Shown here: in pieces, positions 7,336-36,758 of the stretch
How positions within the stretch are numbered: the first letter of the stretch is position 1
Layout of the letters: every line of letters begins with the position of its first letter
Assembly (NCBI GenBank): GCA_016125275.1
Contig: WGMB01000009.1
Coordinates: forward strand, 372,001-436,000
Reading direction: 5' to 3'
DNA length: 64,000 nt
Origin: Acidobacteriota bacterium
GTDB taxonomy: Bacteria; Acidobacteriota; Terriglobia; Bryobacterales; UBA6623
Notes under the pieces: model-generated
The model's input: the letters and a program-made list of their open reading frames with translations, nothing else
What the model was told of the DNA's origin: nothing
The model's database searches: none
Made by a program: the position numbers and the translations under genes

Positions 7336-7367
7336 GTCGAACACTCCCATTCCAATCGCTGATTCGG

Positions 7368-8258: not shown

Positions 8259-8283
8259 GACGACCTCCTCACCGCCCGGTGCG

Positions 8284-9168: not shown

Positions 9169-9181
9169 GGTTCCCCTCTGC

Positions 9182-11843: not shown

Positions 11844-11849
11844 GGGTCG

Positions 11850-18338: not shown

Positions 18339-18451
18339 TCCCTCATCAGTAAAAACCCCTAGATCGACTGTGAGGTTGGATACCTAACAGAATCGGGGCC
18401 GCCGGAAGAGTTCCAGGACTCCTTCTCGCTATCTGAGTGGAAAGAAAGACG

Positions 18452-19420
18452 ATGCGCGCCCCACACCCCGCCTTCTCGTTCGACATCTGTCGTGCTCTGC
18501 TCGGCGCCGCGCTGGCCTTGGCGCTCGTCGCGCCCGGCCGAGCGGCGCAGGAGCCCGAGCCTCTGCCGCTCGGCCAAGGCGATCAGGTCGAGGTCACCGT
18601 CTTGAAGCTGCCGGAGATCCAGGCGCTGACGGTGGCGGTCGACGACATGGGCGCCATCAGCCTGCCGATGATCGGCCGCGTGGAGGCGGCGGGGCGGAAC
18701 CCGCAGCAGGTTCAGGAAGCCATCGAGGAGAAGCTCTCCTCTTTCATGCGTGAGCCGAGCGTACGCCTGCGGGTGCTGACGCTGGCCAGCCGGCCGGTCT
18801 CCGTGCTGGGCGCCTTCAAGCAGCCCGGCGTGCACCAACTGCAAGGTCAGATGCGGTTGATGGAAGTGCTGTCCCTGGCGGGCGGCCTGCGCGAGGACGC
18901 CGGCTACTCCCTCAAGATTTCCCGCTCGATCGAGCAAGGCGACCTGCCCCTGCCGGGCTCCGCCTTGGACGACACGGGCAAGTTTCATATCGCCGAGGTC
19001 GACCTGGCGGCGTTGCTGCGCAATGAGAACCCGGCGCAGAACATCCTGATCCGGCCCAACGACGTCATCACGGCCCCGCGCGCTCATCTGGTGTACGTGA
19101 TCGGCGACGTCTACAAGGCCGGCGGCTTCGTGCTGGCCGAACGGCAGTCGATGTCGGTGCTGCAGGCGCTGGCGATGGCCGAAGGCATGCGCGGAACGGC
19201 TTCGGCGGGCAAGGCCCGCATCATCCGTCCGATTCCTAATTCCAACGAAAAAGAAGAGATCCCGGTCGACGTCAAGCGCATTCTCAACGGGCATGCCGAC
19301 GACTTGGCGATGTTGCCCGAGGACGTTTTGTTCATCCCCAACTCCGTCACCAAGTCCACCGGCAAGATCATGCTCGGCACGGCCTTGGATCTCGGCAAGG
19401 GTCTCATTATTTTCCGCTAG
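18452..19420 (+). CDS. Polysaccharide export protein (Wza/outer-membrane auxiliary family)
   Basis: 322 residues from the ATG at 18452; a GGAAAG ribosome site lies between it and an in-frame GTG five codons upstream. Signal peptide of ~32 residues ending in a small-residue run, with no lipobox Cys. A Poly_export domain (~37-115, beginning GQGDQVEVTVLKLPEI) is followed by two SLBB-type beta-grasp units (VLGAFKQPGVHQL and VIGDVYKAGGFVL). Family members form the outer-membrane pore for capsule or exopolysaccharide. It is the first gene of the locus, directly before the chain-length kinase. Confidence 0.9.
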   Translation: MRAPHPAFSFDICRALLGAALALALVAPGRAAQEPEPLPLGQGDQVEVTVLKLPEIQALTVAVDDMGAISLPMIGRVEAAGRNPQQVQEAIEEKLSSFMREPSVRLRVLTLASRPVSVLGAFKQPGVHQLQGQMRLMEVLSLAGGLREDAGYSLKISRSIEQGDLPLPGSALDDTGKFHIAEVDLAALLRNENPAQNILIRPNDVITAPRAHLVYVIGDVYKAGGFVLAERQSMSVLQALAMAEGMRGTASAGKARIIRPIPNSNEKEEIPVDVKRILNGHADDLAMLPEDVLFIPNSVTKSTGKIMLGTALDLGKGLIIFR

Positions 19421-19452
19421 GCCGGCAGGGGCCAAGGTAGACCGATCCCATC

Positions 19453-21756
19453 ATGAGTCGCTCGTCATACTTTCTCGACCAGTCCCGGGGCGCCATCGCG
19501 CCGCGGTACGCCGCAAGTTTCAACCCCGGCGCCGTTGCGCCGCAGCCTGAGGTGGATGACGCGAGCTTTCTGCTCGAGTACTGGATGGTATTGTGGCGGC
19601 GTCGCTGGACGATCGCGCTGGCGAGCTTGGTGACCGCGGCCCTGGGGCTGGCGGTCAGCATGACTCTCACGCCGGTCTACTCCGGCGAGGCGATGCTGCA
19701 GATCGAGGGCGTGAACCAGAACTTCATGGGGCTGGAGTCGCTCAACCCGGTCGCCGCGCCCACCGGTCCGATCAACGTCTACCTGCCGACCCAGATGCAG
19801 ATCCTAGAGAGCGACTCGCTGGTCGCCTCGGTGGTCGACAAGATGGGGCTGGCCGAGCGCGACGAGTTCCAGGGCGAGGGCCTGTCGACGCGGCTGGGCC
19901 GCAAGCTCGGCCTCGTCTCCACGCCGCCTTTGCCGGCGTCGGAGGTGGCCCTGAAGAAGGCCCGCAAGAAGCTCTCGGTCGAGCCGATCGTGCAGACGCA
20001 CCTGGTGGTCGTAGGCTTCCAGTCGAAGGACCCGGAGTTGGCCGCCGCGCTGCCGAACGCGCTGGCCCAGGAGTTCATTCGCAAGAACCTGGAGCTGCGC
20101 CGCGACGCCGGCAAGTCCACGTCGGCCTGGCTCGAAGAAGAGCTGCACGACCAGAAGCGCCTGCTCGAAGACGCCGAGAACAGCCTGCAGACCTACGCCC
20201 GGAAGAACGGCCTCTACTTCACCGGCCAGGCGCAGGAGAGCATCGCCGAAGACAAGATGCGGCAGATGCAGTCCGAACTGCTGCGCGCCGAAGCCGAGGC
20301 CGCCGCCACCCAGGCCCGCTTCGAGGCGGCGGTGTCGAGCGCCCCCGAGACCCTGGGCGAAGTGCTCTCCGATCAGTCGCTGCGCCAGAAGGAAGGCGCC
20401 CTGACGACGCTCAAGCAGGAGCTGGCGCAGACCGAGCTGTGGTTCAAGCCGAACTACCCGCGGGTGCGCGAGCTACAGGCCCAGATCGGCGAGATCGAGT
20501 CCACGCTGCAGCAAGAGCGCGCCAACATCGTGCAGCGCATCGAGAATGACTACCGCACGGCCCGCCGCCGCGCCGATCTGCTCGGAGCCGAGCTCGAGCG
20601 GCAGATCAAGGTCGTCTCCGGCGAGTCCCAGGTGGCCGTTCAGTACAACATCCTCAAGCGCGAGGTCGAGACGAACCGGCAAGTCTACGATTCGCTGTTG
20701 CAACGCATGAAGGAGGCCGGCGTCGCCGCAGCCATCCAGAACAGCAACATCACGATCGTCGACGCGGCCCGCGTTCCGCTGGAGCCTTCCGAGCCGAACA
20801 TCCCGCGCAACGTGCTGCTGGGCTGGCTTGTCGGGCTGTGCGGAGCCATCGGGCTGGTCTTCGTCCGTGACCGCGCCGACTCGACGCTGCGCACGCCGGG
20901 CGACGCCGAAACGCGCCTGTCGCTGCCTGAGCTGGGCGTGATCCCTGCCTTCGAATCCGATGCGCCCTCGCGCCGCCTGCTGGGCCGAGGCCCGGCCGGG
21001 GTGCGGATGCGGCAAGCCGACGAGGACCCCGAGCGGGCCCTTGAGCTGGTCTGCTGGCGCCGTGAGCAATCGGCCCTGGCGGAAGCCTTCCAGTCCACGC
21101 TGACCTCGGTCGAGAACATCATCCCCGACGGCGACTCGCCGCGTTGCCTGGTGGTTTCGAGCGCCCGCGCCGGCGAGGGCAAGACGACCGTGCTCAGCAA
21201 CCTCGGCGTGGCCGCCGCGCAGCGCGGCCGGCGCGTGCTGCTGATCGACGCCGATCTGCGCGCCCCGCGCCTGCACGAGCTGTTCAAGGTGGACAACCGT
21301 TACGGGCTCAGCAACCTTCTCCGAGCCGTCCGTCAAGACGGCGAGACCAATGAAGCGCTGGTGCGTCCCACCGGCGTCGACAATCTGTTCGTGCTGCCGG
21401 CCGGTACATCCGACGCCAGCATTCCCAAACTCTTGGGCTCCCCCCGTGTGAATGACCTGCTCCGGTCCTTGGAGCGTGAGTTCGACTTGATCCTGATCGA
21501 TACGCCGCCCGGCTTGGCCGTGGCCGACGCCCGTCTGCTGGCTCGCTTGGCCGACGGCGTGTTGCTGGTGCTGAGAGCCGGCCAGACCGACATGAGCTCG
21601 GCTGAGGCCGTCCAGCGCCGCTTCCAGGGCGACGGCGCGGCGATGATCGGCGCGGTTCTCAACGGCTGGAACGCTTCCCGCGACGGCTCTGCTTGGCTGG
21701 ACCCGCGGGACCGCACCTACTACGACCGTTTGGACCGTACGCCGGGCCGCGTTTAA
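19453..21756 (+). CDS. Chain-length determinant / tyrosine autokinase (Wzc/GumC-like)
   Basis: 767 residues. An N-terminal Wzz domain is bounded by two transmembrane helices (~residues 50-75 and ~445-470), with a long coiled-coil periplasmic section between them. The cytoplasmic BY-kinase domain (~560-767) has Walker A (RAGEGKTT), Walker A' (LLIDADLRAPR) and Walker B (LILIDTPPG). The C-terminal tyrosine cluster is minimal (RTYYDRLD), with only two tyrosines against the longer clusters of classical Wzc. The protein controls polymer length and export by cycles of autophosphorylation. It starts 32 bp after the export gene. Confidence 0.92.
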   Translation: MSRSSYFLDQSRGAIAPRYAASFNPGAVAPQPEVDDASFLLEYWMVLWRRRWTIALASLVTAALGLAVSMTLTPVYSGEAMLQIEGVNQNFMGLESLNPVAAPTGPINVYLPTQMQILESDSLVASVVDKMGLAERDEFQGEGLSTRLGRKLGLVSTPPLPASEVALKKARKKLSVEPIVQTHLVVVGFQSKDPELAAALPNALAQEFIRKNLELRRDAGKSTSAWLEEELHDQKRLLEDAENSLQTYARKNGLYFTGQAQESIAEDKMRQMQSELLRAEAEAAATQARFEAAVSSAPETLGEVLSDQSLRQKEGALTTLKQELAQTELWFKPNYPRVRELQAQIGEIESTLQQERANIVQRIENDYRTARRRADLLGAELERQIKVVSGESQVAVQYNILKREVETNRQVYDSLLQRMKEAGVAAAIQNSNITIVDAARVPLEPSEPNIPRNVLLGWLVGLCGAIGLVFVRDRADSTLRTPGDAETRLSLPELGVIPAFESDAPSRRLLGRGPAGVRMRQADEDPERALELVCWRREQSALAEAFQSTLTSVENIIPDGDSPRCLVVSSARAGEGKTTVLSNLGVAAAQRGRRVLLIDADLRAPRLHELFKVDNRYGLSNLLRAVRQDGETNEALVRPTGVDNLFVLPAGTSDASIPKLLGSPRVNDLLRSLEREFDLILIDTPPGLAVADARLLARLADGVLLVLRAGQTDMSSAEAVQRRFQGDGAAMIGAVLNGWNASRDGSAWLDPRDRTYYDRLDRTPGRV

Positions 21757-21785
21757 GGGATCGAGAACGGAAGGGGAGTCCGACA

Positions 21786-23216
21786 ATGAGCTTTCTCGAC
21801 CAACCTCGTTATCGGTTGATGCAATGGGCCGCCGACTTGGCCGCGCTGAGCCTCGCCTGGCTGCTGACTCTGCAAATCCGTTTCTGGCTGAACCCGATCC
21901 TGGCGACGCCGCTGACGATGGGCGAGCTGCGGGAGCTGGCGCCGCCGTTGACGGCCATCCTGGTCATCTGGTCGCTGGCGGCGGTGTGGGTGCGCTCGCG
22001 GCGCGGCGGCTCGTCGATCGGCGTCAACCTGCTCAACGCCGCCGAATCGGTGCTGATCGCCGGCGTGGTGACGGTGGTCGTCTCGTTCTTCTACCGCGAG
22101 TTGGTGGCCGATCTGTCACGCGGTTTCGTGCTGATGTACGTGCCGGTAAGCTTCGGCATGATCCTGCTGGGCCGCTACGCCGCGATGGCGGCGATGTTCG
22201 AGACCGAATCGCGTTGGCCGAGCGAAGAGCGGCTGGCGATCGTGGGCCGGGTGGGCGAGGCCGGCCGGCTGGTGCGCGACCTGCTGAGCGAGCAGATGCC
22301 GGTGGCCGGCATCATCGTGCCGGGAGCGGGCGTGGGCGCCGGCGACGGCGCCGCCATGGCCACGCCGGTGTTGGGCACGGCGGCGAGCCTGGGCGAGATC
22401 ATCAACCGCGAGAAGCTCAGCCGGGTCATCATCGCCTCCTCGGGCCTGGAGGCCGAGGAGCTGGCCGCTTGCGAAGGCGTGGCGCACCGCATGGGCGTCC
22501 CCGTGGCGCACGTCATCGGCCGGGTCTCCGGCGGAGCCGCCCGCTACCGCGACGTGGGCGCCGTAAGGCTGCTCGAGCTGCACCCGCCCCGCTTCACCCG
22601 GCGGCAGGAGATGCTCAAGCGCGCCGTGGACATCATGGCCTCCAGCCTGCTGCTGCTGGCGCTGGCGCCGCTGCTGGCGCTGATCTGGGTTCTGGTGCGG
22701 GCCACCTCGCGCGGCCCGGCGCTCTACAAGGCCCCGCGGGTGGGCAAGGGCGGCCGCTACTTCACGTTCCTCAAGTTCCGCTCGATGTACATCGACGGCG
22801 TGGACCGCGCCAAGCTGGCCAAGACCAATGAGAAGAGCGGCCACCTGTTCAAGATCCGCAATGACCCGCGGATCACGCCGCTCGGCGCCGTCCTGCGGCG
22901 CTACTCGCTCGACGAGCTGCCGCAGTTGATCAACGTGCTGCGCGGCGACATGAGCCTGATCGGCCCGCGTCCGTTGCCTTCCGCCGACCTGCAGCCCGAC
23001 GGCATGAGCCGCGACTTCCAGTTGTGGTCCGAGACGCGGGCCCGCGTGATGCCCGGCATCACCGGCCTTTGGCAGATCTCGGGCCGCTCGGACCTGAACT
23101 TCGAGCAAATGGTGGAGCTCGACGTGGAGTACGTGCAGACGTGGTCGCTGGCGCAGGACTTCAAGATCCTGCTCCAGACGCCCTTGGTGGTCCTGACCGG
23201 ACGAGGCGCGTACTAG
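21786..23216 (+). CDS. Initiating sugar-phosphate transferase (polyprenyl glycosylphosphotransferase)
   Basis: 476 residues from the ATG at 21786, preceded by GGAAGGGGAG. Several N-terminal transmembrane helices (~12-130) and a CoA-binding-like middle domain are followed by a membrane-attached helix (~285-305) and the catalytic bacterial sugar transferase domain (LKFRSMY, RNDPRITPLGAVLRRYSLDE, GPRPLP, GITGLWQISGRS). This is the WcaJ/EpsL architecture, which transfers a sugar-1-phosphate to undecaprenyl phosphate to start the repeat unit at the inner membrane. The stop codon overlaps the next start by one base, so the two are translationally coupled. The exact sugar is unknown. Confidence 0.92.
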   Translation: MSFLDQPRYRLMQWAADLAALSLAWLLTLQIRFWLNPILATPLTMGELRELAPPLTAILVIWSLAAVWVRSRRGGSSIGVNLLNAAESVLIAGVVTVVVSFFYRELVADLSRGFVLMYVPVSFGMILLGRYAAMAAMFETESRWPSEERLAIVGRVGEAGRLVRDLLSEQMPVAGIIVPGAGVGAGDGAAMATPVLGTAASLGEIINREKLSRVIIASSGLEAEELAACEGVAHRMGVPVAHVIGRVSGGAARYRDVGAVRLLELHPPRFTRRQEMLKRAVDIMASSLLLLALAPLLALIWVLVRATSRGPALYKAPRVGKGGRYFTFLKFRSMYIDGVDRAKLAKTNEKSGHLFKIRNDPRITPLGAVLRRYSLDELPQLINVLRGDMSLIGPRPLPSADLQPDGMSRDFQLWSETRARVMPGITGLWQISGRSDLNFEQMVELDVEYVQTWSLAQDFKILLQTPLVVLTGRGAY

Positions 23217-24592
23217 TGGGCGCGCGGCCCAGCCGCGCGTCGAGCGGGGGACTTCGAGCCCGTCTCGGCGCCCTCTTGGCCAGCGGTCTCGCCCGGGACG
23301 GCTTCTGGACGGCGCTCGATCAAGTGCTGGTGAGCGGCACGAACTTTGCCGCCGGCATCCTGTTGGCCCGCCTGTGCGCCCCTGAGGAATACGGCGCCTT
23401 CGCGGTCGGCTTCATGACGCTGATGCTGCTGGCGGGCGTACAGCGCGCGGTCATCACCGACCCGCTGGCTGTGCTGGGGCCCGGCCGGGACGAGAGCGAG
23501 CTCAAGCGCTACGTCCGCTCTCTGTCTCAGGCGCAGGCTTGGCAAGCGCTGGTGCTGGCCGGAGCCACCGGCTTGGCCGCCGCCGCGGTCTGGCTGGCCG
23601 GCGGCCCCGAGGTCACCTCGCAGGCCTTGTTCGGAACCGCCGTGGCGGGCTTCTTCGTGCTTGGGCAGGATTACCGGCGGCGGGTGCTGTTCACCAAGCT
23701 GCTGCCGCAGCGCGTGCTGTGGATCGACGCCCTGTTCTGCTCACTCTACTTGGGCGGACTGGTTGTGCTGTGGCGCTGGGGCGCGGCCGGCGGCGCGGCG
23801 GACGAGTACCTCTCGGCGCGCAACACGCTGCTGGCCATGGCCGTCGCGGCCGCAGCCGCCAGCGCGCTGGGCTCGTCGCTGATTCGAGCCCACCAAGCCG
23901 CCGACGCCCCGGTCGAGCGCCGTTTCTGGCGCGAGAACTGGCAGTTCGGCCGCTGGCTGCTGGGCGATTTCCTCGGCTTCTCGCTGATGGTGCAAGGCGG
24001 CATCTTCGCCGTCGCCGCGATGACCGGCAACGCCCAGGCGGCGGTCTTCGAGAGCGCCCGGCTGGTGGTCGGGCCGCTACAGATCCTGATGACCGGCGGC
24101 CACGCCTTTCTGATGCCTTGGGCCGCCACGCGGCTCGCCGAAGGCGGCGGCGAGGGCCTGACGCGGGCGCTGCGTCCGGTCGTTCTGGTCTGGACGCTGG
24201 CCTTCGTGGGCTACCCGCTGCTGGTGGCGCTGACGCCCCAGCTCTGGCTGGGATTGTTCTACGGCGGACGCTACGACAGCGCGGCCTCGGCGCTGGTGCT
24301 GTGGGCCGGCGTCTACGCCGCTCTGGGGTTGTCGCAACTGCCCTGGATCGTGGTGCAGGTGCTGCGCCGGCCGGACTTGGCGATGGCCGTCAACCTGTCA
24401 GTCGGCGCGATGGGCCTGCTGCTGATGATCGCCCTTACGCAGAGCCTCGGCGTGGAAGGCGCCGTGGCCGGACGCCTGTGCGGCGAGACGTTGCACTTGC
24501 TGGTCGGGTTGGGCTTGGCCTGGCGGCTGCTCCGGCGTGAGGCCGACCAGCCGGCGGCGACCGCCTTGCGGGCGGCGGAGGGATCGATATGA
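23216..24592 (+). CDS. Polysaccharide flippase-like membrane protein (Wzx family)
   Basis: 458 residues from a GTG that shares its G with the stop codon of the preceding gene. Upstream in-frame sequence mirrors the sugar transferase and is excluded. About twelve hydrophobic helices; the first conserved motif (FWTALDQVLVSGTNFAAGILLARLCAPEEYGAF) is typical of the MATE/polysaccharide-transport flippases. It should move the lipid-linked repeat unit across the inner membrane. It overlaps the following ligase gene by ATGA. Confidence 0.82.
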   Translation: MGARPSRASSGGLRARLGALLASGLARDGFWTALDQVLVSGTNFAAGILLARLCAPEEYGAFAVGFMTLMLLAGVQRAVITDPLAVLGPGRDESELKRYVRSLSQAQAWQALVLAGATGLAAAAVWLAGGPEVTSQALFGTAVAGFFVLGQDYRRRVLFTKLLPQRVLWIDALFCSLYLGGLVVLWRWGAAGGAADEYLSARNTLLAMAVAAAAASALGSSLIRAHQAADAPVERRFWRENWQFGRWLLGDFLGFSLMVQGGIFAVAAMTGNAQAAVFESARLVVGPLQILMTGGHAFLMPWAATRLAEGGGEGLTRALRPVVLVWTLAFVGYPLLVALTPQLWLGLFYGGRYDSAASALVLWAGVYAALGLSQLPWIVVQVLRRPDLAMAVNLSVGAMGLLLMIALTQSLGVEGAVAGRLCGETLHLLVGLGLAWRLLRREADQPAATALRAAEGSI

Positions 24593-26064
24593 GCGCCGCC
24601 GCCATGAACGGGCCAGCAATCAACCGAACTGCGATCAACGCCGTGGGAACCCACAGCGCCGTCGGGGCCGCCGCGCGCCAGGTGCGCATCCCGTTCCCGG
24701 TCACGATGCTGCTGCTCTACCTGGCCGCCATCACGGTCATCGGCAAGGGCCCCACCTATCTCGGGGTGCCGCCTCTGTTCTGGGGCGAGATGGTGATGCT
24801 CACTACGGTCGCCTGGACGGTCAGCCGCAGGGGCTTCGCGCGGCTGCTGACCTCCCGCCCGCGTGAGATCTCGACGCTGCTGATGCTCTACATGGGTCTG
24901 GGCGCGGCCTTGACGGCCTTCTGGCTGCCCACTTGGAAGATGGCCGCCGTCCGCGACGCCGCCGTCTGGTTCTACGCCATCTTCTTCGCCGTCGGCATCA
25001 CCATCGCCGAGGACGACCCGCTCGGCGACCGCGTCTGGATCTGGTTGCGCCGCTTCTTCATCGTGGCGCTGGTCTGGAACACCGCCAACTATCTCACCGG
25101 CGAGAAGCTTTCGACCATGGGGCCGCTGGTGCCGTTCCGCGGCGTGCCGCTGCTGTCGAACTCCCGCGAGGAGCCGCTGCAGCACTTGGCGATGGGTTTT
25201 GTACTGGTGCTGGCCACGAACATGTTTCGCGGGCGGCCGATCACGCGGGCGTTCCTGTCGATCGTCTCGATGGCCGGCTTCGTGTTCTTCATGCTGTCGG
25301 AAGCGCGCGGCGTGAAGGTGGGCTTCGCCTTGGGCGTGATGGCCGTGGTGGCCTTGGGACTGGCCCCGGGCCGCAAGACCCCGCTGGCTTCGCGAACCAC
25401 CGCCGGCATCGTGCTGGGCTGCATCGTGCTGGTTCTGGTGCTCGGCGTCGCCAACATCGACTTCGGCGAAGCCATGCACGCCGACCGCGTGAAGGATCTG
25501 GGCGACATGTCCACTGAGGGCACAGCCTACTGGCGGCTGGTGTGGTGGAAGGGCCTGTTCCGCGAGGTCATGGCCAAGGACCCCTTGTTCGGCCTGGGCT
25601 TCGGCGTCAACCTCAGCGACTACAGCCCCATTTTGTCGATCGACCCCGGCGAGCACGACGCGGGCTTCCCGGTGCGCTCGCCGCACAACATCAACATGAC
25701 CGTGTTTTCGCGCATGGGGCTGGTGGGCGCCGTCATCTGGGTCGCGCTGCTGGCGACGTCTCTGGGCGGCCTGTTCCTGCGCATCTGGCGGGGACGCGCC
25801 CAGGGCGTTCCCTACACGCCGGAGCGCCGCGAGGAGCTGCAGTTCTGGATCCTGATGCTGCTGACCACCTGGGGCGACAGCTCGTTCGCCGTGCTGATGG
25901 AAGGCCCCGTGATGGCGATCTGGTTCTGGTTCGCCCTGGGCTTCTCCACCGGGCGTTCGCTGACGCCTGGAACCGAAACGGATGCCGCCGTCAGCCTAGT
26001 CGGAACCGTGCGTAAGGGGAATCGCCTAGCGCGCCCCCTCCGAACGGCTGCATACGAATCCTAA
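24589..26064 (+). CDS. O-antigen ligase/polymerase-like membrane protein
   Basis: 491 residues with about ten to twelve transmembrane helices. A large periplasmic loop near residues 300-380 contains LFGLGFGVNLSD and the motif SPHNINMTVFSRMGLVG, matching the conserved His-Asn-Gly pattern of the O-antigen ligase/Wzy_C family. It likely polymerises or ligates the repeat units. The start overlaps the flippase stop (ATGA). The first 35 residues are polar, and an alternative start at the ATG at codon 6 is possible. A 72-bp gap follows, carrying a sigma54-type promoter. Confidence 0.8.
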   Translation: MSAAAMNGPAINRTAINAVGTHSAVGAAARQVRIPFPVTMLLLYLAAITVIGKGPTYLGVPPLFWGEMVMLTTVAWTVSRRGFARLLTSRPREISTLLMLYMGLGAALTAFWLPTWKMAAVRDAAVWFYAIFFAVGITIAEDDPLGDRVWIWLRRFFIVALVWNTANYLTGEKLSTMGPLVPFRGVPLLSNSREEPLQHLAMGFVLVLATNMFRGRPITRAFLSIVSMAGFVFFMLSEARGVKVGFALGVMAVVALGLAPGRKTPLASRTTAGIVLGCIVLVLVLGVANIDFGEAMHADRVKDLGDMSTEGTAYWRLVWWKGLFREVMAKDPLFGLGFGVNLSDYSPILSIDPGEHDAGFPVRSPHNINMTVFSRMGLVGAVIWVALLATSLGGLFLRIWRGRAQGVPYTPERREELQFWILMLLTTWGDSSFAVLMEGPVMAIWFWFALGFSTGRSLTPGTETDAAVSLVGTVRKGNRLARPLRTAAYES

Positions 26065-26104
26065 CTCGCTTGCAATGAGACTCTTACTCCACATCCAAAG
26101 GGTT

Positions 26105-26120
26105 TGGCCCGCTGCTTGCC
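26105..26120 (+). promoter_or_regulatory. Candidate sigma54 (-24/-12) promoter
   Basis: TGGCCCGCTGCTTGCC matches the sigma54 consensus TGGCACGNNNNTTGCW at all but two positions, with the essential GG and GC spaced by ten bases. It lies 16 bp before the deacetylase ATG, so the transcript would have a very short leader. Confidence 0.55.
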
Positions 26121-26136
26121 CTACAAGTGACGGACC

Positions 26137-26895
26137 ATGCTGATCCCATCCACAGTGCGGCTTGGGCGGCCGATCGTCACCACGAGCTGGGACGATGGAC
26201 ACGCCTCGGACCTGCGCCTGGCGGAGCTACTCGGCCGCTACGGGTTTCGCGGGACGTTCTACGTGCCGTTCCGCGCCGTGCGCGAGCCGCTGCTGACGCC
26301 GGCGCAGTTGCGCGAAGTCGCCAAGTCCGGGATCGAGATCGGCGGCCACACGCTGACCCATCCCAGCATGAAGGGCCTGGGCCTGGAGCGCTCGCGGCAG
26401 GAAGTGCGCGAGAGCAAGCAGCGGCTCGAGGACATTCTCGGCCGGCCGGTCACGTCGTTCTGCTATCCCAACGGCGACCTCGACGCCGAGGCGCGCGAGG
26501 CCGTGCGGCAGGAAGGCTACTCGCTGGCCCGCACCACGGTGAACCTGCGCACGAGCGTCGGCGGCGATCCCTTGCGGATGCCCACGAGCCTCCAGTTCTA
26601 CCCGCACAGCGCCTACAAGCGGCTGCGGATCTTCGGGCGCAACCGAGACGTCCCGGGCCTGCTGCGCTGGGCGACCGGCCACGGCTGCCGAGCCGGGCTG
26701 GACGGACTGATCGACTCGCTGTTCAACCACGCCATGCGCAACGGTGGAGTCTTCCACCTGTGGGGACATTCCTGGGAGCTGGACCGGTTCGAGCTTTGGG
26801 GGCCGCTCGAGCGGACGCTGGAGCGTCTGAGCGGACGGGCGGGCGTGCGGTATTTGACCAATGCTGAGACGTTGGAGGCGGTGAGCAAGCCATGA
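26137..26895 (+). CDS. Polysaccharide deacetylase (NodB family, CE4)
   Basis: 252 residues. The NodB motifs are clear: TTSWDDGH (motif 1 with the catalytic and metal-binding Asp pair), GGHTLTHPSM (motif 2, HxxxH metal ligands) and CYPNGD (motif 3). The family removes N- or O-acetyl groups from polysaccharides using a divalent metal. No signal peptide is apparent, so it may act on a cytoplasmic or lipid-linked intermediate. A sigma54-type promoter sits just upstream, and the stop overlaps the next gene (ATGA). Confidence 0.9.
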   Translation: MLIPSTVRLGRPIVTTSWDDGHASDLRLAELLGRYGFRGTFYVPFRAVREPLLTPAQLREVAKSGIEIGGHTLTHPSMKGLGLERSRQEVRESKQRLEDILGRPVTSFCYPNGDLDAEAREAVRQEGYSLARTTVNLRTSVGGDPLRMPTSLQFYPHSAYKRLRIFGRNRDVPGLLRWATGHGCRAGLDGLIDSLFNHAMRNGGVFHLWGHSWELDRFELWGPLERTLERLSGRAGVRYLTNAETLEAVSKP

Positions 26896-27734
26896 CTGTG
26901 CGCAACGAGAAGCAGGCGGCGCAGGCGCCGCAAAAGCAGAACGTACTGGGCGTCGGCATCAGCGCGACCAGCTACGAAGAGGCCACCGCGGTGTGCGGAA
27001 GCTGGGTGGAGCAGCGCCGCGCCGCCGTCAAGCAAGGCCTCGAAGTTCCCGGCCGCTACGTGGCCGTGACCTCCGTGCACGGTATCGTCAACGCTGTCAG
27101 CCAGCCGGACATCCAGGCCATCTTGAACGGCGCGGACATGGCCACGCCCGACGGCATGCCGGTGGTTTGGGCGCTGCGCTCGTTCGGCCACAAGGCCCAG
27201 CAGCGCGTCTACGGCCCGACCCTGATGCTGCACGTCTGCGCGCAGGCGGCGCGCTTCGGCCACCGCATCTTTCTCTACGGCGGGCGGACGGAGACCTTGC
27301 CGGTTCTGGTGCAGAACCTCAAGGCCCGCTTTCCGGGCATTCAGATCGTCGACAGCTACTCGCCGCCCTTCCGGCCCCTGACGCCGGAAGAGGACGCCGA
27401 CTGCATTCGGCGGATTCGTGAAGCCGACGCCGACATCGTCTTCGTCGGCATCTCGACGCCCAAGCAGGAGCGCTGGATGGCCGACCACAAGGCCAAGCTG
27501 CCCGGCGTGGTGATGTTCGGCGTCGGGGCGGCCTTTGACTTTCATGCCGGCCGGGTGGAGCAGGCTCCCGGTTGGATGCAACGCAGCGGCTTGGAATGGT
27601 TCTTCCGGCTCACACGGGAACCGAAGCGATTGTGGCGTCGCTATGTGCTCGAGACGCCTCGGTTCTTGCCGCTGTGGGCGATGCAGTGGGCGGGCCTGCG
27701 CACGTTTTCCATGGATGGTTCGCGCGGCAAGTGA
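26892..27734 (+). CDS. WecG/TagA/CpsF-family glycosyltransferase (GT26)
   Basis: 280 residues. The family core is visible: VTSVHGIVNAV, NGADMATPDGMPVVWALR, RVYGPTLM, LYGGRTETLP, and a C-terminal VFVGISTPKQERWM plus GVGAAFDFHAGRVEQAPGWM. Members transfer ManNAc, ManNAcA or similar residues to lipid-linked acceptors at the inner face of the membrane. The first ~15 residues are rich in Gln and Ala and may be a poorly conserved extension. It is coupled to the deacetylase by a 4-bp overlap. Confidence 0.9.
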   Translation: MTVRNEKQAAQAPQKQNVLGVGISATSYEEATAVCGSWVEQRRAAVKQGLEVPGRYVAVTSVHGIVNAVSQPDIQAILNGADMATPDGMPVVWALRSFGHKAQQRVYGPTLMLHVCAQAARFGHRIFLYGGRTETLPVLVQNLKARFPGIQIVDSYSPPFRPLTPEEDADCIRRIREADADIVFVGISTPKQERWMADHKAKLPGVVMFGVGAAFDFHAGRVEQAPGWMQRSGLEWFFRLTREPKRLWRRYVLETPRFLPLWAMQWAGLRTFSMDGSRGK

Positions 27735-27786
27735 CCGGGCGAGCGGGGAATGGACTTTTAATTTCGACCTGGAGGAAGGAAACGCA

Positions 27787-28782
27787 ATGAGTAAGCAAAC
27801 GCGAGTGCTGGTTACCGGGGCGGGCGGCTTCATCGGACACCACTTGGTGAAGCGCTTGGTAAACAGCGGGTACTGGGTCCGCGGCGTCGACATCAAGGAG
27901 CCTGAGTACGAAGCCACGGCCGCGCACGAGTTCCACGTGCTCGACCTGCGCAAGTACGACAACTGCCTGGAAGCCGTCAGCAACATCGAAGAAGTCTACG
28001 GCTTGGCCGCGAACATGGGCGGCATCGGGTTCATCGAGTCCAACAAGGGCGTCATCGTGCGCGACAACACGATGATCAACCTGCACACCATCGAGGCTGC
28101 GCGGGTGCAGGGCGTCAAGCGCTACCTGTACACCTCCAGCGCTTGCATCTACCCGGGCTATCGCCAGAACGAAGCGGCCGTGACTCCGCTGCGCGAAGAG
28201 GACGCCTATCCGGCCGAGCCCGAAGACGGTTACGGCTGGGAGAAGCTCTACATGGAGCGCATCTGCCGGCACTACACCGAGGACTTCGGCGTCGACACCC
28301 GCGTCGTGCGCTTCCACAACATCTTCGGACCGCTGGGCACCTATGACGGCGGCCGCGAGAAGTCCCCGGCGGCGATCTGCCGCAAGGTGGCGCTGGCCGA
28401 GGACGGCGACGCCATCGAGGTGTGGGGCGACGGCGAGCAGACCCGCTCCTACTGCTACATCGACGACTGCGTGGAAGGCATCTACCGCCTGATGCGCTCG
28501 GACTACCGCGAGCCGCTCAACCTGGGCCAGGACCGCATGATCTCGATCAACCAGTTGGTCGACATGGTTTCGGCCGCGGCCGGCAAGAAGGTCTACCGGA
28601 CCCACGACCTGACCAAGCCGCAAGGCGTGCGCGGTCGCAACAGCGACAACGACCGGCTGCGGAAGATCCTGGGCTGGGAGCCGCAGGTGTCGCTCGAAGA
28701 CGGTCTGGCGCGGACCTACCGCTGGATCGAGGGCGAGCTCGCCAAGGCCGGCCGGCTGACCCGCGAATCGGTGGCCGCCTGA
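27787..28782 (+). CDS. GDP-mannose 3,5-epimerase-like NAD-dependent epimerase
   Basis: 331 residues from the ATG at 27787, preceded by GGAGGAAACGCA, which decides this start over longer frames. Rossmann motif GAGGFIG; the catalytic region has SSACIYPGYR and YGWEKLYMER (YxxxK). FHNIFGPLGTYDGGREKSPAAICRK and GDGEQTRSYCYIDDC closely follow plant GDP-mannose 3,5-epimerase, including the cysteine of SSACIYP and the lysine of GGREK that act as acid/base there. The likely reaction is GDP-D-mannose to GDP-L-galactose or GDP-L-gulose, feeding the polymer. Bacterial relatives may act on other sugars. Confidence 0.82.
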   Translation: MSKQTRVLVTGAGGFIGHHLVKRLVNSGYWVRGVDIKEPEYEATAAHEFHVLDLRKYDNCLEAVSNIEEVYGLAANMGGIGFIESNKGVIVRDNTMINLHTIEAARVQGVKRYLYTSSACIYPGYRQNEAAVTPLREEDAYPAEPEDGYGWEKLYMERICRHYTEDFGVDTRVVRFHNIFGPLGTYDGGREKSPAAICRKVALAEDGDAIEVWGDGEQTRSYCYIDDCVEGIYRLMRSDYREPLNLGQDRMISINQLVDMVSAAAGKKVYRTHDLTKPQGVRGRNSDNDRLRKILGWEPQVSLEDGLARTYRWIEGELAKAGRLTRESVAA

Positions 28783-28813
28783 GTCGTAAGAGTCTGGAGA
28801 ACGTGAGGCAACC

Positions 28814-29689
28814 TTGCTGAGGATTACCCAGGGAGGCGGCGGACTGGTCCCGGTCCGCCGCATACTCACCGAGCCTTTGGGGGCGCGGTACGACCTTCGC
28901 CGACTTGCGCTCGAAAACGTCGACGCAGTCTTCGGCGAGATCGGCCAGCGCATCTTCGTGCTCGGGCGGGACCTGCGGATGGGCGCGGACGACAAGAGCG
29001 CGCGCGTCGACATTCTCGGCTTGGACCCGGCGGGCAACCTGTTGCTCACGTTCATCCGGCCTCGCACCGAACCCGACGATCTGACCAACGCGGTGCGCGC
29101 CGCATCGGCGGCCGCGCCGTGGCGGCCGGAGGACTTTCTCGAACGGCTCTCCGCCGCCCGGCGCAAGGAGCTCACCGGCTTTCTCGAAGCCGGTCCCGAC
29201 CAAATCAACCGCAGCCAGCGCATCGTGCTGCTGAGCGAGGACTACGACTTCGACGCCTTGCTCGGGGTCCGCATGCTGCGCGAGCGGCGCAACATGGACG
29301 TGCTGGCCATCCACGCCGCGCTGGCGCTGGACTACGAGAGCGGCGCGGAGTACATGGCCTGCTCGGAGATGTCCGGCGCGAACCTGCCGGCCGTCGTGGG
29401 CATTCCGTTGCCTGAGGCCGCCCGCAAGAACGCCGGGGCTCGCGCCCTGCCGGCCGGCGAAGAGGGGTCCGAGGAGCCAGCCTCCCCGGCGTCGCCGAGC
29501 GCCAAGGCCGCTCCCAAGACCGCTGTTCCGGCCGCGGCGGACGACAAGGATCAGGAGCGCGACGAGAATCGCGTGGTCCCCCTGTCAACCCAGCCGCTGG
29601 CGGCGAAACCCTTCAAGGAGCTCTTCATCGACGGCTGGAAGGTCGTCGGCGCCGAGCTCAACCCGGATCGCCCCACCGAGCCCGAGTAA
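28814..29689 (+). CDS. Uncharacterised protein with a degenerate nuclease-like (NucS/DUF91-type) fold
   Basis: 291 residues from a TTG preceded by GTGAGGCAACC. Residues ~30-150 resemble the C-terminal restriction-endonuclease-like domain of NucS/DUF91 proteins: a helix with LENVDAVFGEIGQ, then RVDILGLD (Asp66), then GNLLLTFIRPR. In active relatives the last strand carries ExK; here Phe80 and Arg82 occupy those positions. A low-complexity Ala/Pro/Lys linker (~215-255) precedes a short conserved end (FKELFIDGWKVVG). It lies within the exopolysaccharide locus, 5 bp before a glycosyltransferase gene. I assign no function; a structural or carrier-binding role is a guess. Confidence 0.7.
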   Translation: MLRITQGGGGLVPVRRILTEPLGARYDLRRLALENVDAVFGEIGQRIFVLGRDLRMGADDKSARVDILGLDPAGNLLLTFIRPRTEPDDLTNAVRAASAAAPWRPEDFLERLSAARRKELTGFLEAGPDQINRSQRIVLLSEDYDFDALLGVRMLRERRNMDVLAIHAALALDYESGAEYMACSEMSGANLPAVVGIPLPEAARKNAGARALPAGEEGSEEPASPASPSAKAAPKTAVPAAADDKDQERDENRVVPLSTQPLAAKPFKELFIDGWKVVGAELNPDRPTEPE

Positions 29690-29693
29690 TGCC

Positions 29694-30932
29694 ATGCGTG
29701 TCGCCGTCTGCCACAACTATTACCAACAGCCGGGCGGCGAAGACACCGTCTTCCATGCGGAGGTGGACCTGCTGCGCAGGCACGGGATGCAGGTCTTTCC
29801 GCACACGGTGCACAACGACGCGGTCGGGTCGATCTCCACGCTGACGCTGGCGCGCAAGACGATCTGGAACCGCGAGACGGCGTCCGAGATCGAGCAATTG
29901 GTGCGGCGCGAGAAGATCGACGTCGTCCACTTCCATAACACGCTGCCGCTGTTCTCGCCCGCCGCCTACTACGGCGCCCGGCGAGCCGGCGCGGCCGTGG
30001 TGAAGACGCTGCACAACTACCGCATGGCCTGCCCCGGCTCCACGCTGTTTCGCCAGGGCACGGTCTGTGAGAAGTGTCTGGGCAAGGCCGCGCCCTGGCC
30101 GGGCGTGGCGCACGGCTGCTATCGCGGCAGCCGCATGGCCACCGCCGGGGTGGCCGCCATGCTGACCACGCATCGGCTGATGGGAACCTACAGCCGCGCC
30201 GTGGACGCCTACATCGTGCTCAGCGAGTTCGCCCGCGGCAAGCTGCTCGAAGGCGGGCTGCCGCCGGAGAAAACCTTCATCAAGCCCAACTTTTTGGAGC
30301 CCGATCCGGGCGTCGGCGAGGGCGACGGCGGCTACGCCTTCTTCCTGGGGCGGCTGTCGCCGGAAAAAGGCGTGCGGCTGCTGCTGAAGGCCTGGGAAGA
30401 GCAGGGCTGCACGGTGCCGCTCAAGATCGGCGGCAGCGGCCCGCTGGAGGAAGAGGTCGCCGCGGCGGCTGACCGCCGGCCGCACGTGGAAGCGCTAGGC
30501 CGCCTCTCGGCCAAAGAGGTCGACTTCCACATGAAGAGGGCCTCCTTCTTGGTCTTGCCGTCGGTCAACTACGAGGGCTTTCCGCGCACCGTCGTGGAAG
30601 CCTACGCCCGTGGCCTGCCGGTGCTGGCTTCGCGGCTGGGATCGCTCGAGGAGCTGATCCACGACGGCGAGACCGGGGCGCACTTCGCGCCCTACGATCC
30701 CGCCGACCTGGCCCAGCGGGCCGAAGCCCTGTTCGCCGATACCGAGGCCTTGCGACGCCAGCGCCTGGCGGCGCGCTCGGCCTACGAGCGCCAGTACCGC
30801 GGCGACACGAATTTTCAACAACTGCAGAGGGTTTACCAAAACGCCATCGCGGCGCGCGGACGCTCCAAACCCGTCGAGCGGCCGCAGCCGAACAACCAAT
30901 ACGCCAAGGGAGAAACGCCATGCGCGCCGTAG
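29694..30932 (+). CDS. Glycosyltransferase family 4
   Basis: 412 residues. The N-terminal domain begins VAVCHNYYQQPGGEDTV, as in many GT4 enzymes. The C-terminal domain has GRLSPEKGV, the donor-site LKIGGSGPLEEEV, and the ExxxxxxxE-type motif YEGFPRTVVEAYA. A short Cys-containing segment (ACPGSTLFRQGTVCEKC) suggests a small metal or disulfide element. Cytoplasmic, retaining transferase that adds a sugar from a nucleotide donor to the growing unit. Its 3' end overlaps the nucleotidyltransferase gene by 13 bp. Confidence 0.92.
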   Translation: MRVAVCHNYYQQPGGEDTVFHAEVDLLRRHGMQVFPHTVHNDAVGSISTLTLARKTIWNRETASEIEQLVRREKIDVVHFHNTLPLFSPAAYYGARRAGAAVVKTLHNYRMACPGSTLFRQGTVCEKCLGKAAPWPGVAHGCYRGSRMATAGVAAMLTTHRLMGTYSRAVDAYIVLSEFARGKLLEGGLPPEKTFIKPNFLEPDPGVGEGDGGYAFFLGRLSPEKGVRLLLKAWEEQGCTVPLKIGGSGPLEEEVAAAADRRPHVEALGRLSAKEVDFHMKRASFLVLPSVNYEGFPRTVVEAYARGLPVLASRLGSLEELIHDGETGAHFAPYDPADLAQRAEALFADTEALRRQRLAARSAYERQYRGDTNFQQLQRVYQNAIAARGRSKPVERPQPNNQYAKGETPCAP

Positions 30933-31699
30933 TTCTAGCCGGAGGCAAGGGCCGCCGACTCGAACCCTACACCATCAGCTTTCCCAAACCGCTCGTGCCG
31001 GTCGGGGACATGCCGATCCTCGAGGTGGTGATCCGCCAGCTCCAACGCTGCAACTTCGAACACGTCACGATGGCCACCGGCCACTTGGCCGAGCTGCTGG
31101 TGGCCTACTTCGGAGACGGCGCCAAGTGGGACGTCCAAATCGACTACTCCCGCGAGGACGCGCCGCTGGGAACGGTCGCCCCGCTGAAGCTCATTGGGGA
31201 CCTGCCCGAGAGCTTTCTGGTCATGAACGGCGACGTGCTCACCACGCTGCGCTATGACCACCTGTTCGAGTACCACCGGCAGTCCGGCGCGGAGCTCACG
31301 GTCGCCTGCCATCGCTGCAGCACCCAGGTCGACCTGGGCGTGATCGAGTTCGACAGCGAGCTCGAGGTGACCGGGTACCGCGAGAAGCCTCGCCTGAGCT
31401 ACGACGTCTCGATGGGCGTGTACGTTTTCAATCGCAGCGTCCTCGACCTGGTGCAGGGCGACCAGTACATGGACTTCCCCACCCTGGTCGACACCATGAT
31501 CCGCCGCAAGCGTCCGGTGAAGGTCTATCTCTCCGACGACCGCTGGCTCGACATCGGGCGGCCGGCCGACTACGCCGAGGCCAACCGCATCTTCCAGCAG
31601 CGCCGCAACGAGTTCCTGCCCCAGGAGCTCAACGGAGCCTTCGAACCCAACGTGCGCCGGGCGGCGGCCAGCCGGCTGCTGTTCGCCGAGCGGGGATAG
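30920..31699 (+). CDS. Sugar-nucleotidyltransferase (NDP-sugar synthase)
   Basis: 259 residues. Signature GxGTRL-like motif AGGKGRRLEPYT with SFPKPLVPV, a metal-binding VMNGDVLT, and DIGRPADY near the C-terminus, as in RfbA/GalU/mannose-1-phosphate guanylyltransferase relatives. It activates a sugar-1-phosphate with an NTP. It lacks the left-handed helix domain of longer members. Overlap with the preceding glycosyltransferase indicates coupling. Which sugar and base are used cannot be said. Confidence 0.9.
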   Translation: MRAVVLAGGKGRRLEPYTISFPKPLVPVGDMPILEVVIRQLQRCNFEHVTMATGHLAELLVAYFGDGAKWDVQIDYSREDAPLGTVAPLKLIGDLPESFLVMNGDVLTTLRYDHLFEYHRQSGAELTVACHRCSTQVDLGVIEFDSELEVTGYREKPRLSYDVSMGVYVFNRSVLDLVQGDQYMDFPTLVDTMIRRKRPVKVYLSDDRWLDIGRPADYAEANRIFQQRRNEFLPQELNGAFEPNVRRAAASRLLFAERG

Positions 31700-31711
31700 G
31701 GAGACCGAGCC

Positions 31712-32674
31712 ATGAAGACACTGATTCTGGGAGGAGCCGGCTACGTCGGCTCGACATTGACGCGCCGCTTGTGGGAGGCCGGCCACGACGTGACGGTCTA
31801 TGACCGGCTGCTGTTCGGCTCCGCCTCGCTCGAACCGCTGCAAGGCCGCGAGCGCTTTCGACTGATCGAAGGCGACATCCGCGACGCCGCCGCCCTGCAG
31901 GCCGTCACGGCCGGCCAGGACGCCGTGGCGCTGCTGGCCGCCATTGTCGGCGAGCCGGCCTGCAACCGGGACCCGCAATTGGCCGTGGAGACCAACCTGC
32001 TGGGCGCGCGCAACGCGCTCGCCGCCGCTCGCCGCGCCGGCGTCGACCGTTTCGTGTTCGGCAGCACGTGCAGCAACTACGGCGTCTCCCGCCCGGATGC
32101 GCTGGTGGACGAAACCGCGCCGCTGCAACCCCTGTCGACCTATTCCGAGACCAAGGTGCAGGCCGAAAAGGAGATTCTGGCCGCCGCCTCGGAGCTGTTC
32201 CACCCCACGGTGCTGCGGTTCTCGACGGCCTTCGGCATCTCGGCCCGCATGCGCTTTGACCTGCTGGTGAGCGACTTCACCCGAGCGGCCGTGCGCGAAG
32301 GCAAGGTGGTGGTCTACGGCGAGCAGTTCTGGCGGCCCTTCGTGCACATCGAAGACATCGCCAAGGCCGTGGAGCTGGTGCTGGGCGCTTCGTCGGAGAC
32401 GGTCGGCGGAGAGGTCTTCAACATCGGCGCCAACTCGGCCAACACCCAAAAAATCGAGCTGGCCCGCCGGGTGCAGCATCGGGTCGAGGGCTCGCAGCTC
32501 GAATTCGTCAAGCGGGACGTCGATCCGCGCAGCTACCGCGTCGACTTTACGAAGGTGCGGCAGCGGCTGGGCTTCGTCAGCGACTGGAGCGTCGACGACG
32601 GCATCCGCGAGGTGCACGAGGCGCTGCTGGCCGGCGTCTGGGCCGACCCGTACAGCAGTCGCTACCAGAACTAG
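31712..32674 (+). CDS. NAD-dependent epimerase/dehydratase (extended SDR)
   Basis: 320 residues. The Rossmann motif is GGAGYVG, with a second strand ending TVYDRLLFG. FGSTCSNYG is followed by the catalytic YSETK (YxxxK). The C-terminal part has RPFVHIEDIAKAV and FNIGANSAN, typical of UDP-glucose 4-epimerase relatives. It provides a nucleotide sugar for the polymer, perhaps the ketosugar used by the DegT aminotransferase that begins 15 bp later. Confidence 0.88.
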   Translation: MKTLILGGAGYVGSTLTRRLWEAGHDVTVYDRLLFGSASLEPLQGRERFRLIEGDIRDAAALQAVTAGQDAVALLAAIVGEPACNRDPQLAVETNLLGARNALAAARRAGVDRFVFGSTCSNYGVSRPDALVDETAPLQPLSTYSETKVQAEKEILAAASELFHPTVLRFSTAFGISARMRFDLLVSDFTRAAVREGKVVVYGEQFWRPFVHIEDIAKAVELVLGASSETVGGEVFNIGANSANTQKIELARRVQHRVEGSQLEFVKRDVDPRSYRVDFTKVRQRLGFVSDWSVDDGIREVHEALLAGVWADPYSSRYQN

Positions 32675-32689
32675 GCGGGAGAGGGGGCT

Positions 32690-33859
32690 ATGCGGAGCTA
32701 TTTGCTGTCCGACGTGGACATGGGAGCCGAGGAGGTGGAGGCGGTGACGGAAGTGGTGCGCAGCAAGTGGCTCTCAGCCGGGCCGAAGACCGCCGCCTTC
32801 GAAGCGGCCTTCGCCGAGGCCCTGGGCGCCGCGCACGGCGTCGCGCTGTCGAGCTGCACGGCCGCGCTGCACCTGGCCCTGGACGCCCTGGAGGTCGGCC
32901 CGGGCGACGAGGTGCTGCTGCCGAGCTACACCTTCGTCGCCACCGCCAACGCGGTGCTCTACCAGCGCGCGACGCCGGTCTTCGTGGACATCGTGGGCCC
33001 GCATGACTTGAATCTCGACCCGGCCGACTTGGCCGCCAAGGTCACCCCGCGCACCAAAGCCATCGTGGCGGTGCACCTGGCGGGCTTTCCGGCCGACATG
33101 GACGCCTTGATGGCTGTCGCCGAGCGGTATGGGCTGGCCGTGATCGAGGACGCCTGCCACGCCGTAGGGGCCGACTACCGTAGCCCGTCCCACAGCGCTC
33201 TGCACGGCCGCAAGGCCGGCACGATCGGCCACATCGGCTGCTTCAGCTTCTTCGCCAACAAGAACCTCGTGACCGGCGAGGGCGGCATGGCCGTCACTGA
33301 CGACGAGTCGCTGGCCCGCAAGATGCAGCGCGGGCGCTCGCACGGGATGACCAAGTCGAGCTGGGACAAGGCCAGCGGACGCGCCAGCGACTACGACGTG
33401 GTGCAACTGGGCTACAACTACCGGCCGACGGAGGTCGCCGCCGCGCTCGGACTGGTGCAACTGCGCAAGCTGGCCGGCGCGAACGAGCGACGCCGCGAGC
33501 TGGCCGCCGCCTACCGCCGCGAGCTGCTGGGCCTGCCCGGCCTGACGATGCCCTTTGCCCACCGTCTCGACGGCGCCCACCACATCCTGCCGATCCTGCT
33601 CGATGAGCCGGCCGAGCGGCCCGGCTTTCGCCACGCCCTCAAGGAAGCCGGCGTGCAAACCTCGGTGCACTACCCGCCCGCGCATCGCTTCAGCCAATAC
33701 TGGGCCGAATACGGCCGCCACGCCGAGGTCCCGCGGACTGACGACGTGGCGGCGCGCGAGGTGACGCTGCCGCTGCATCCGCTGCTGGGCGACGAGGACG
33801 TGGCGGCGATCGCCGCCCTCACGCGCCAAGCGCTGGTGGCCGAAGCTCTGCCGGTTTAG
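32690..33859 (+). CDS. DegT/DnrJ/EryC1/StrS-family sugar aminotransferase
   Basis: 389 residues. The PLP-binding features are clear: SSCTAALHLALDAL, LPSYTFVATANAVLYQRATPVFVDI, EDACHAVGA, and the Schiff-base lysine in FFANKNLVTGEGG, followed by GYNYRPTEVAAALG. Members transfer an amino group to a nucleotide ketosugar, or dehydrate it in some branches. As last gene of the locus it suggests the polymer carries an amino sugar, consistent with the deacetylase. It converges with the sulfatase gene, with only four bases between the stops. Confidence 0.92.
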   Translation: MRSYLLSDVDMGAEEVEAVTEVVRSKWLSAGPKTAAFEAAFAEALGAAHGVALSSCTAALHLALDALEVGPGDEVLLPSYTFVATANAVLYQRATPVFVDIVGPHDLNLDPADLAAKVTPRTKAIVAVHLAGFPADMDALMAVAERYGLAVIEDACHAVGADYRSPSHSALHGRKAGTIGHIGCFSFFANKNLVTGEGGMAVTDDESLARKMQRGRSHGMTKSSWDKASGRASDYDVVQLGYNYRPTEVAAALGLVQLRKLAGANERRRELAAAYRRELLGLPGLTMPFAHRLDGAHHILPILLDEPAERPGFRHALKEAGVQTSVHYPPAHRFSQYWAEYGRHAEVPRTDDVAAREVTLPLHPLLGDEDVAAIAALTRQALVAEALPV

Positions 33860-33863
33860 GCGC

Positions 33864-35216
33864 TCACTCGGGCCGCCGGACGGGATAGTCCGGCGACGCC
33901 ACGTAGGCCTCGGCCATCACGGCTTCCAGCCGGCGCACCACGTCCGGGTGCGCCGCGGCCACGTCGCGGGTCTCGCCGGGGTCTGCTTCCACGTCATAGA
34001 GCTCGATCGGCTGGTCCAAGCCGTTGCGGACGGCCTTCCACTCGCCCTGCCGGACGGCTTGCAGAAAGGCGCTGCGGGTGTGGCCGTAGTCCCAGTACAG
34101 CGCCTCGTGCCGACGCTGCTCGCCGCCGGTGAGCGCCGGCACGAACGAGATGCCGTCGGTCTTCGCCGGGGGCGGCAGGCCCGCCAGCTCGGCCGCGGTC
34201 GGCAGAAAGTCCCAGAAGGCGCAGACGTGGCCGCTCACCGAGCCCGCCTCGATGCGCCCTTTCCAGCGTGCGATCAGCGGCACGCGGATGCCGCCTTCAT
34301 ACATGTCGCGCTTCTTGCCGCGCAACGGGCCCGCGCTGCGGAAGAACTCCAGGTCGTGGCCGCCCCAGGGTCCGTTGTCGCTGGTGAAGAAGACGATGGT
34401 GTTGCTGTCGAGCCCGTGCTCGGTGAGCTTGTCGAGCAGCCGGCCCACGTGGCCGTCCAGGCGGGTGATCATCGCCGCGTAGTTCTTCTCGAGCTGCGGC
34501 CAGTCCTCGCCGGAGTAGGGCTCGTCGCTGGGCACGATCAGCTTGTCGGGCCCTTCGGTGAAGTCGGAGAAGTGCGGCAGGGTGGTGGCGAAGTAGAGGA
34601 AGAACGGCCGTTCGCGATGCCGGTCGATGAAGTCGAGCGCTTCTTCGACGAACAGGTCCGGCGCGTACTGCACGTGGCGGTCCTGGCGGTTCTCCATGAG
34701 CAGCCGGATCCGGTCGTCGTCCCACAGATAGTCGGCGTAGTACTGGTGGGCTTGGTCCTGGTTGAGGTGGCCGAAGTACTCGTCGAAGCCCTGGTAGAGC
34801 GGCACGCCCCACGAGCCCGGGTTGCCGAGGCTCCACTTTCCGTACCCTGCGGTGGCGTAGCCGGCCTGCTGCAGCAGCTCCGCCACGGTGAAGTCGTCGG
34901 GCCGCAGGAAGACGCCGTGGGGGATGTTGTCGCGCACCCGGCCGTGGCCGTTGTGAAAGCCCGTCAGCAGGGCGCAGCGCGAGGGCGCGCACACGGTCGA
35001 ACCGGCGTAGGCCTGCGTAAAGCGCATGCCCTCGGCCGCCAGCCGATCGATGTTCGGCGTGCGGATCTTGGTCTGTCCGTAGCAGCCCAGGTCGCCGTAG
35101 CCGAGATCGTCGGCCATGATCCAGACGATGTTGGGACGCCGCGGCCCGCCCTGCGCCGAAGCCGGGCCGGCCAGAGCCGTCGCGGGAACCAGGCGAAACA
35201 GCTCGCGACGCGTCAT
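33864..35216 (-). CDS. Tat-exported sulfatase (alkaline phosphatase superfamily)
   Basis: 450 residues. The N-terminus has a Tat-type signal (TRRELFR, cleavage near GPASAQ). Metal site MADDLGYGD is followed by the formylglycine motif CAPSR, with TGFHNGH after it, placing it among type I sulfatases. FFTSDNGPWG gives the second metal-binding region. Activity needs a formylglycine-generating enzyme, not seen in the window. Export by Tat implies folding or modification in the cytoplasm. Its ATG overlaps the stop of the upstream sulfatase (ATGA), so the pair is coupled. A polysaccharide sulfate ester is a likely substrate. Confidence 0.92.
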   Translation of the reverse strand: MTRRELFRLVPATALAGPASAQGGPRRPNIVWIMADDLGYGDLGCYGQTKIRTPNIDRLAAEGMRFTQAYAGSTVCAPSRCALLTGFHNGHGRVRDNIPHGVFLRPDDFTVAELLQQAGYATAGYGKWSLGNPGSWGVPLYQGFDEYFGHLNQDQAHQYYADYLWDDDRIRLLMENRQDRHVQYAPDLFVEEALDFIDRHRERPFFLYFATTLPHFSDFTEGPDKLIVPSDEPYSGEDWPQLEKNYAAMITRLDGHVGRLLDKLTEHGLDSNTIVFFTSDNGPWGGHDLEFFRSAGPLRGKKRDMYEGGIRVPLIARWKGRIEAGSVSGHVCAFWDFLPTAAELAGLPPPAKTDGISFVPALTGGEQRRHEALYWDYGHTRSAFLQAVRQGEWKAVRNGLDQPIELYDVEADPGETRDVAAAHPDVVRRLEAVMAEAYVASPDYPVRRPE

Positions 35217-36667: not shown

Positions 36668-36758
36668 GGCGTGCGGCGTCCGCGTCCCACATCCTGGCAC
36701 AACCTCATGGCCCGGTGGGCCGGGCCCTACAAACTGCGCGAGGCCCCGCCGATCCTAC

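Follow-up and report, generated by a model that had tools for sequence, protein, structure and literature searches.

A NucS-type nuclease fold without its catalytic residues in an acidobacterial exopolysaccharide locus, with relatives fused to PilZ or PAS domains

The locus and its gene

Why should a protein that resembles a DNA mismatch endonuclease, and that has lost its catalytic residues, be encoded among genes for exopolysaccharide (EPS) assembly? This question is raised by one gene in a 64,000-nucleotide stretch of an Acidobacteriota genome, which we refer to as the window. The features considered below are as follows.

18437..33859, + strand: Wzx/Wzy-type exopolysaccharide locus around the dead NucS gene (family matches; flippase recognised by eye only)
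28814..29689, + strand: gene for the dead NucS-like protein (291 aa, TTG start)
28814..29383, + strand: NucS/EndoMS C-terminal-type PD-(D/E)XK domain, residues 1-190 (profile comparison and model)
29009..29011, + strand: Asp66, the sole retained active-site residue (alignment)
29051..29059, + strand: Phe80-Ile81-Arg82, replacing Glu-x-Lys (alignment)
29087..29101, + strand: Asn92...Ala96, replacing the Gln-xxx-Tyr motif (alignment)
29384..29686, + strand: predicted disordered tail, residues 191-291 (model; PilZ at the matching place in four of five relatives)

Judged by its sequence, the open reading frame at 28814-29689 is a real gene. Its codon-position G+C (0.73/0.48/0.88) is as in the neighbouring genes and it can thus be considered coding, while in four relatives an ATG, opening 'MLR...' or 'MLK...', stands opposite its TTG start. 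The gene is preceded by an NAD-dependent epimerase gene, at a distance of 31 bases, and followed after 4 bases by a GT4 glycosyltransferase gene. Around it, the locus runs from an SLBB export protein through Wzz/BY-kinase, polyprenyl sugar phosphotransferase, probable flippase, Wzy, polysaccharide deacetylase, WecG-type transferase and epimerase to the dead NucS gene, followed by the GT4 gene, a nucleotidyltransferase, a second epimerase and a DegT aminotransferase, so that the initial annotation was right to place the gene inside an EPS locus. This arrangement was seen in its own genome only and was not found in the other 17 genomes of the family, nor was an orthologue of the gene; in one of these (G007), a relative of the EPS-locus epimerase is followed by other genes. 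No relative with an intact ExK motif, which would have spoken against the initial annotation, was found at the same locus position. Scans of the genome-contig collection revealed no relatives, and no plasmid match was found.

Fold assignment

On its own, the window protein matched nothing in Pfam or among PDB sequences and did not reach the curated Pfam/NCBIfam cut-off for the NucS/EndoMS endonuclease; NCBIfam holds no NucS model, and the single-protein search there yielded nothing useful. It has two paralogues in its own genome, at 32% and 31% identity, and three more relatives in two further genomes of the family. In the order, class and phylum, a profile of five of these proteins recovered others; 21 of those were aligned, and in each of them ExK is intact. 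When the profile of the dead members was compared with that of 20 intact members, hhalign gave a probability of 99.4% (E 8.6e-22), and a whole-genome search with the intact-members-only profile recovered the window gene with an E of 5.6e-7. The combined profile matched the solved structures of NucS (2vld, 1.1e-7) and EndoMS (5gke, 5.9e-4).

The AlphaFold model of the window protein has pLDDT above 90 over most of residues 21-180 and is disordered after about residue 190. Its best solved match is P. abyssi NucS (2vld_A; VIA-align Z 10.4, rmsd 2.4 over 107 residues), followed by EndoMS (5gke_A; Z 10.2), while the first match outside NucS/EndoMS has a Z of 7.9, in the range below 8 that, by the tool's own note, possibly reflects just a common arrangement. 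It should be considered that intact nucleases were part of the alignment given to AlphaFold, so that the model, unlike the profile tests, depends on the homology. Both point to a homologous fold of the PD-(D/E)XK, NucS type. The NucS/DUF91 fold pattern noted initially from the letters alone, for which structure prediction had been proposed as the check, is thus borne out, the predicted structure being a NucS fold and not another.

Aligned with 2vld, the window protein covers only the C-terminal catalytic domain (2vld 126-233), with its residue 28 opposite 2vld residue 126 at the start of the alignment. As this leaves no room for it, the N-terminal DNA-binding and dimerisation domain of NucS/EndoMS is absent. 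On profiles and model together, it is near certain that residues 1 to about 190 represent a non-catalytic domain of the NucS/EndoMS C-terminal type, and that the protein belongs, without a PilZ of its own, to a small family restricted to one lineage.

Loss of the active site

Residues were compared in a 27-row alignment of the six dead members (the window protein and its five relatives) and 21 intact-class relatives. The invariant Asp, Glu and Lys align with Asp66, Phe80 and Arg82 of the window protein, respectively, exactly as first read, when Asp66 and Phe-Ile-Arg at 80-82 had been reported. All 21 intact-class relatives retain the D, E, K, Q and Y of the NucS/EndoMS catalytic D, ExK and QxxxY motifs. 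In all six dead members E, K, Q and Y are missing, and in two of them D as well. At these five positions, the window protein has D66, F80, R82, N92 and A96, and the relatives have D/V/E/R/A (L002), T/A/Q/D/E (L003), D/I/S/R/S (L004), D/A/H/P/A (L005) and N/A/Q/E/Q (L007). That the replacements differ from member to member points to a loss of catalytic constraint across the six rather than to an alternative site that they share. The initial annotation, which called the nuclease dead and proposed to check whether Glu and Lys are absent throughout, is supported, as both are absent at the ExK positions of all six members, although it did not see the additional loss of QxxxY (Asn92 and Ala96), nor the PilZ-bearing paralogues described below.

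Relatives, partner domains and neighbourhoods

In an IQ-TREE phylogeny that used every kept column, motif columns included, the six dead members form one clade with a support of 100/100. Within it there are three pairs, namely L002 with L004, L003 with L007, and the window protein with L005, the last with moderate support (88/89). Dead members occur in three of the 18 genomes of the family, and no further one was found in overlapping samples of the order (250 genomes), class (399) and phylum (396). As scoring in these searches was confined to the top 8 to 13 candidates of each genome, with an E of 1e-12 for the class and phylum, very diverged dead members could be missed.

Four of the five relatives (L002, L003, L004 and L007) carry a C-terminal PilZ domain, with Pfam E values of 3.6e-6, 8.5e-4, 0.006 and 4e-4, respectively, of which only the first passes the curated cut-off and the other three lie below it. 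Both c-di-GMP-binding motifs, RxxxR and DxSxxG, are present at equal spacing in all four. The L002 model has, beyond a disordered linker, a beta-rich domain for which the top-ranking solved structures are PilZ domains, among them those of cellulose synthase, VCA0042 and Alg44. The fifth relative, L005, ends in a PAS domain and its gene is convergent with a PAS-GGDEF-EAL gene (L047:1930-4794, G007:C96), a further link of the clade to c-di-GMP. The window protein has neither PilZ nor PAS. Its tail contains RDENR at residues 249-253, which resembles the RxxxR of the paralogues, but no DxSxxG, and a PilZ remnant in the tail is not significant, as 40 of 1000 shuffles score as high. The tree, in which the window copy groups with the PAS member, does not favor an origin of this copy from either of the two PilZ paralogues by simple loss of PilZ. 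The window's genome probably has c-di-GMP signalling, as 15 GGDEF and six PilZ matches in it exceed the cut-offs.

The pairs differ in where their genes lie (nadA and nadC were named from their sequences, without a family search). L002 and L004 share a neighbourhood that is conserved in two genera: an ATPase, a gene with a weak EPS-tyrosine-autokinase match, the dead NucS-PilZ gene and then nadC. The ATPase is of the XrtA/PEP-CTERM-associated type, the copy in G000 having an E of 1.6e-50 to TIGR03015, below that model's cut-off. L003 and L007 are located after nadA, with no obvious EPS neighbors.

Two further observations concern the nadC site. The BY-kinase-like gene upstream of the dead NucS-PilZ gene (L043:12307-13110 and L045:9150-10037, both weak autokinase matches) appears by eye to be without the Walker A GK[ST], and is a candidate for another pseudo-enzyme of this module. 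In L004, an in-frame TGA lies within the NucS-like domain (L004:1645-1650, G002:C134), so that a pseudogene or a sequencing error is possible.

Proposed role and alternatives

We tentatively favor the view, to which we give slightly less than an even chance, that the window protein is a non-catalytic adaptor in c-di-GMP-linked EPS control. The dead domain would be a protein-binding platform, which in the paralogues would be coupled to c-di-GMP through PilZ, while the window copy would act in EPS assembly at its locus, or in the regulation of that assembly, as a scaffold or adaptor subunit. Its partner might be a PilZ-bearing paralogue or, contacted through the tail of the window copy, the BY-kinase/Wzz machinery. 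The homology of dead and intact members, the contrast of six of six with 21 of 21 in the catalytic residues, the PilZ or PAS fusions of the other five members and the EPS surroundings (both the window locus and the nadC-site module in two genera, with its TIGR03015-like ATPase and BY-kinase-like gene) are consistent with such a role. Against it, the window copy's own link to c-di-GMP is indirect, as it has no PilZ; a conserved pairing of gene and locus is unsupported, as the EPS locus was found in one genome only; and no EPS genes are evident around the nadA-site paralogues. The suggestion of the initial annotation that the fold was reused as a binding or scaffold protein fits the fusions to PilZ and PAS, and should still be regarded as an interpretation.

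Three other explanations should be weighed. Migrated active-site residues are known in the PD-(D/E)XK superfamily, and since Asp66 is kept and Arg82 is basic, one may ask if the protein is an active nuclease with a rearranged site. We consider this very improbable, as the six members have unrelated residues in place of Glu (F/V/A/I) and Lys (R/E/Q/H/S), and as two have lost even the Asp. An unlikely, though less remote, explanation is that the dead domain, while no longer cutting nucleic acid, still binds it and acts as a transcriptional regulator of the EPS genes or, in the paralogues, of their targets. NucS and EndoMS do bind DNA (5gke is a DNA complex), and a dead PD-(D/E)XK domain can retain the ability to handle it, as in RecC (PMC1185551), but what is absent here is the N-terminal region of NucS, to which DNA binding and dimerisation are ascribed (PMC8228993).

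We also doubt that the gene is a functionless, decaying duplicate of a PilZ- or PAS-bearing paralogue that was inserted in the EPS locus. The missing PilZ, the long tail predicted to be disordered, the RxxxR-like RDENR and the fact that no orthologue was found in the 17 other genomes would be in line with it. Nonetheless, the 291-codon frame is intact with normal codon-position G+C, the shuffles lend no significance to a PilZ remnant, the tree pairs the protein with the PAS member and not with a PilZ pair, and the combination of a well-formed predicted fold with only some 30% identity between the protein and its paralogues suggests long maintenance.

Returning to the adaptor role, a wider reading can be proposed, although we hold it with more doubt: the NucS fold may have been disarmed once in this bacterial lineage and have come to serve, as input or partner domain, in a new class of c-di-GMP (PilZ) effectors controlling EPS assembly, of which a PilZ-free copy was built into an EPS operon as an adaptor. 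If true, a repair-enzyme fold would have been recruited into second-messenger signalling, disarmed throughout a clade and tied to PilZ, PAS and polysaccharide genes, and a new candidate component of c-di-GMP-controlled EPS production could be named.

Relation to known systems

The window protein is like the C-terminal domain of NucS/EndoMS (Pfam PF01939; PDB 2vld, 5gke) in fold, in sequence homology and in having Asp66 at the catalytic Asp, and differs from the mismatch endonuclease in lacking the N-terminal domain and E, K, Q and Y, as well as in its EPS setting. From the same order, class and phylum come intact DUF91/NucS-like proteins that stand alone (L006, L012, L038 and others). They have a homologous N-terminal domain of similar extent, whereas they keep D-ExK-QxxxY, differ in their C-terminal parts and had no PilZ that we noticed. 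Control of EPS by PilZ is already known from Alg44 and BcsA. The window protein's relatives carry PilZ domains with best solved matches including both of these effectors; in contrast to them, the window copy has no PilZ, and the partner domain is a dead nuclease. Inactivated PD-(D/E)XK domains are likewise known, for example in RecC, where the fold without catalysis was given a structural role (PMC1185551); RecC handles DNA, whereas the context here is one of signalling and polysaccharide. In the libraries and open-licence papers searched, no description of a dead NucS fused to PilZ was found.

Other genes near the locus and in the same genome

A second copy of the EPS-locus GT4 gene, with 40% identity, is found in the same genome (G000:C5:60608-61792, L052). 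Upstream of the EPS locus, a PAS/HisKA_2 histidine kinase lies beside a sigma-54-dependent response regulator (window 10770-13604, + strand), and may regulate the locus. Two neighboring genes face the locus from its other end (33864-36700, - strand), the first being a sulfatase by Pfam and the second sulfatase-like by eye. Further upstream, four similar genes of about 295 codons stand in a row (6463-10066, - strand), of which the one tested matches universal stress protein, in two Usp stretches.
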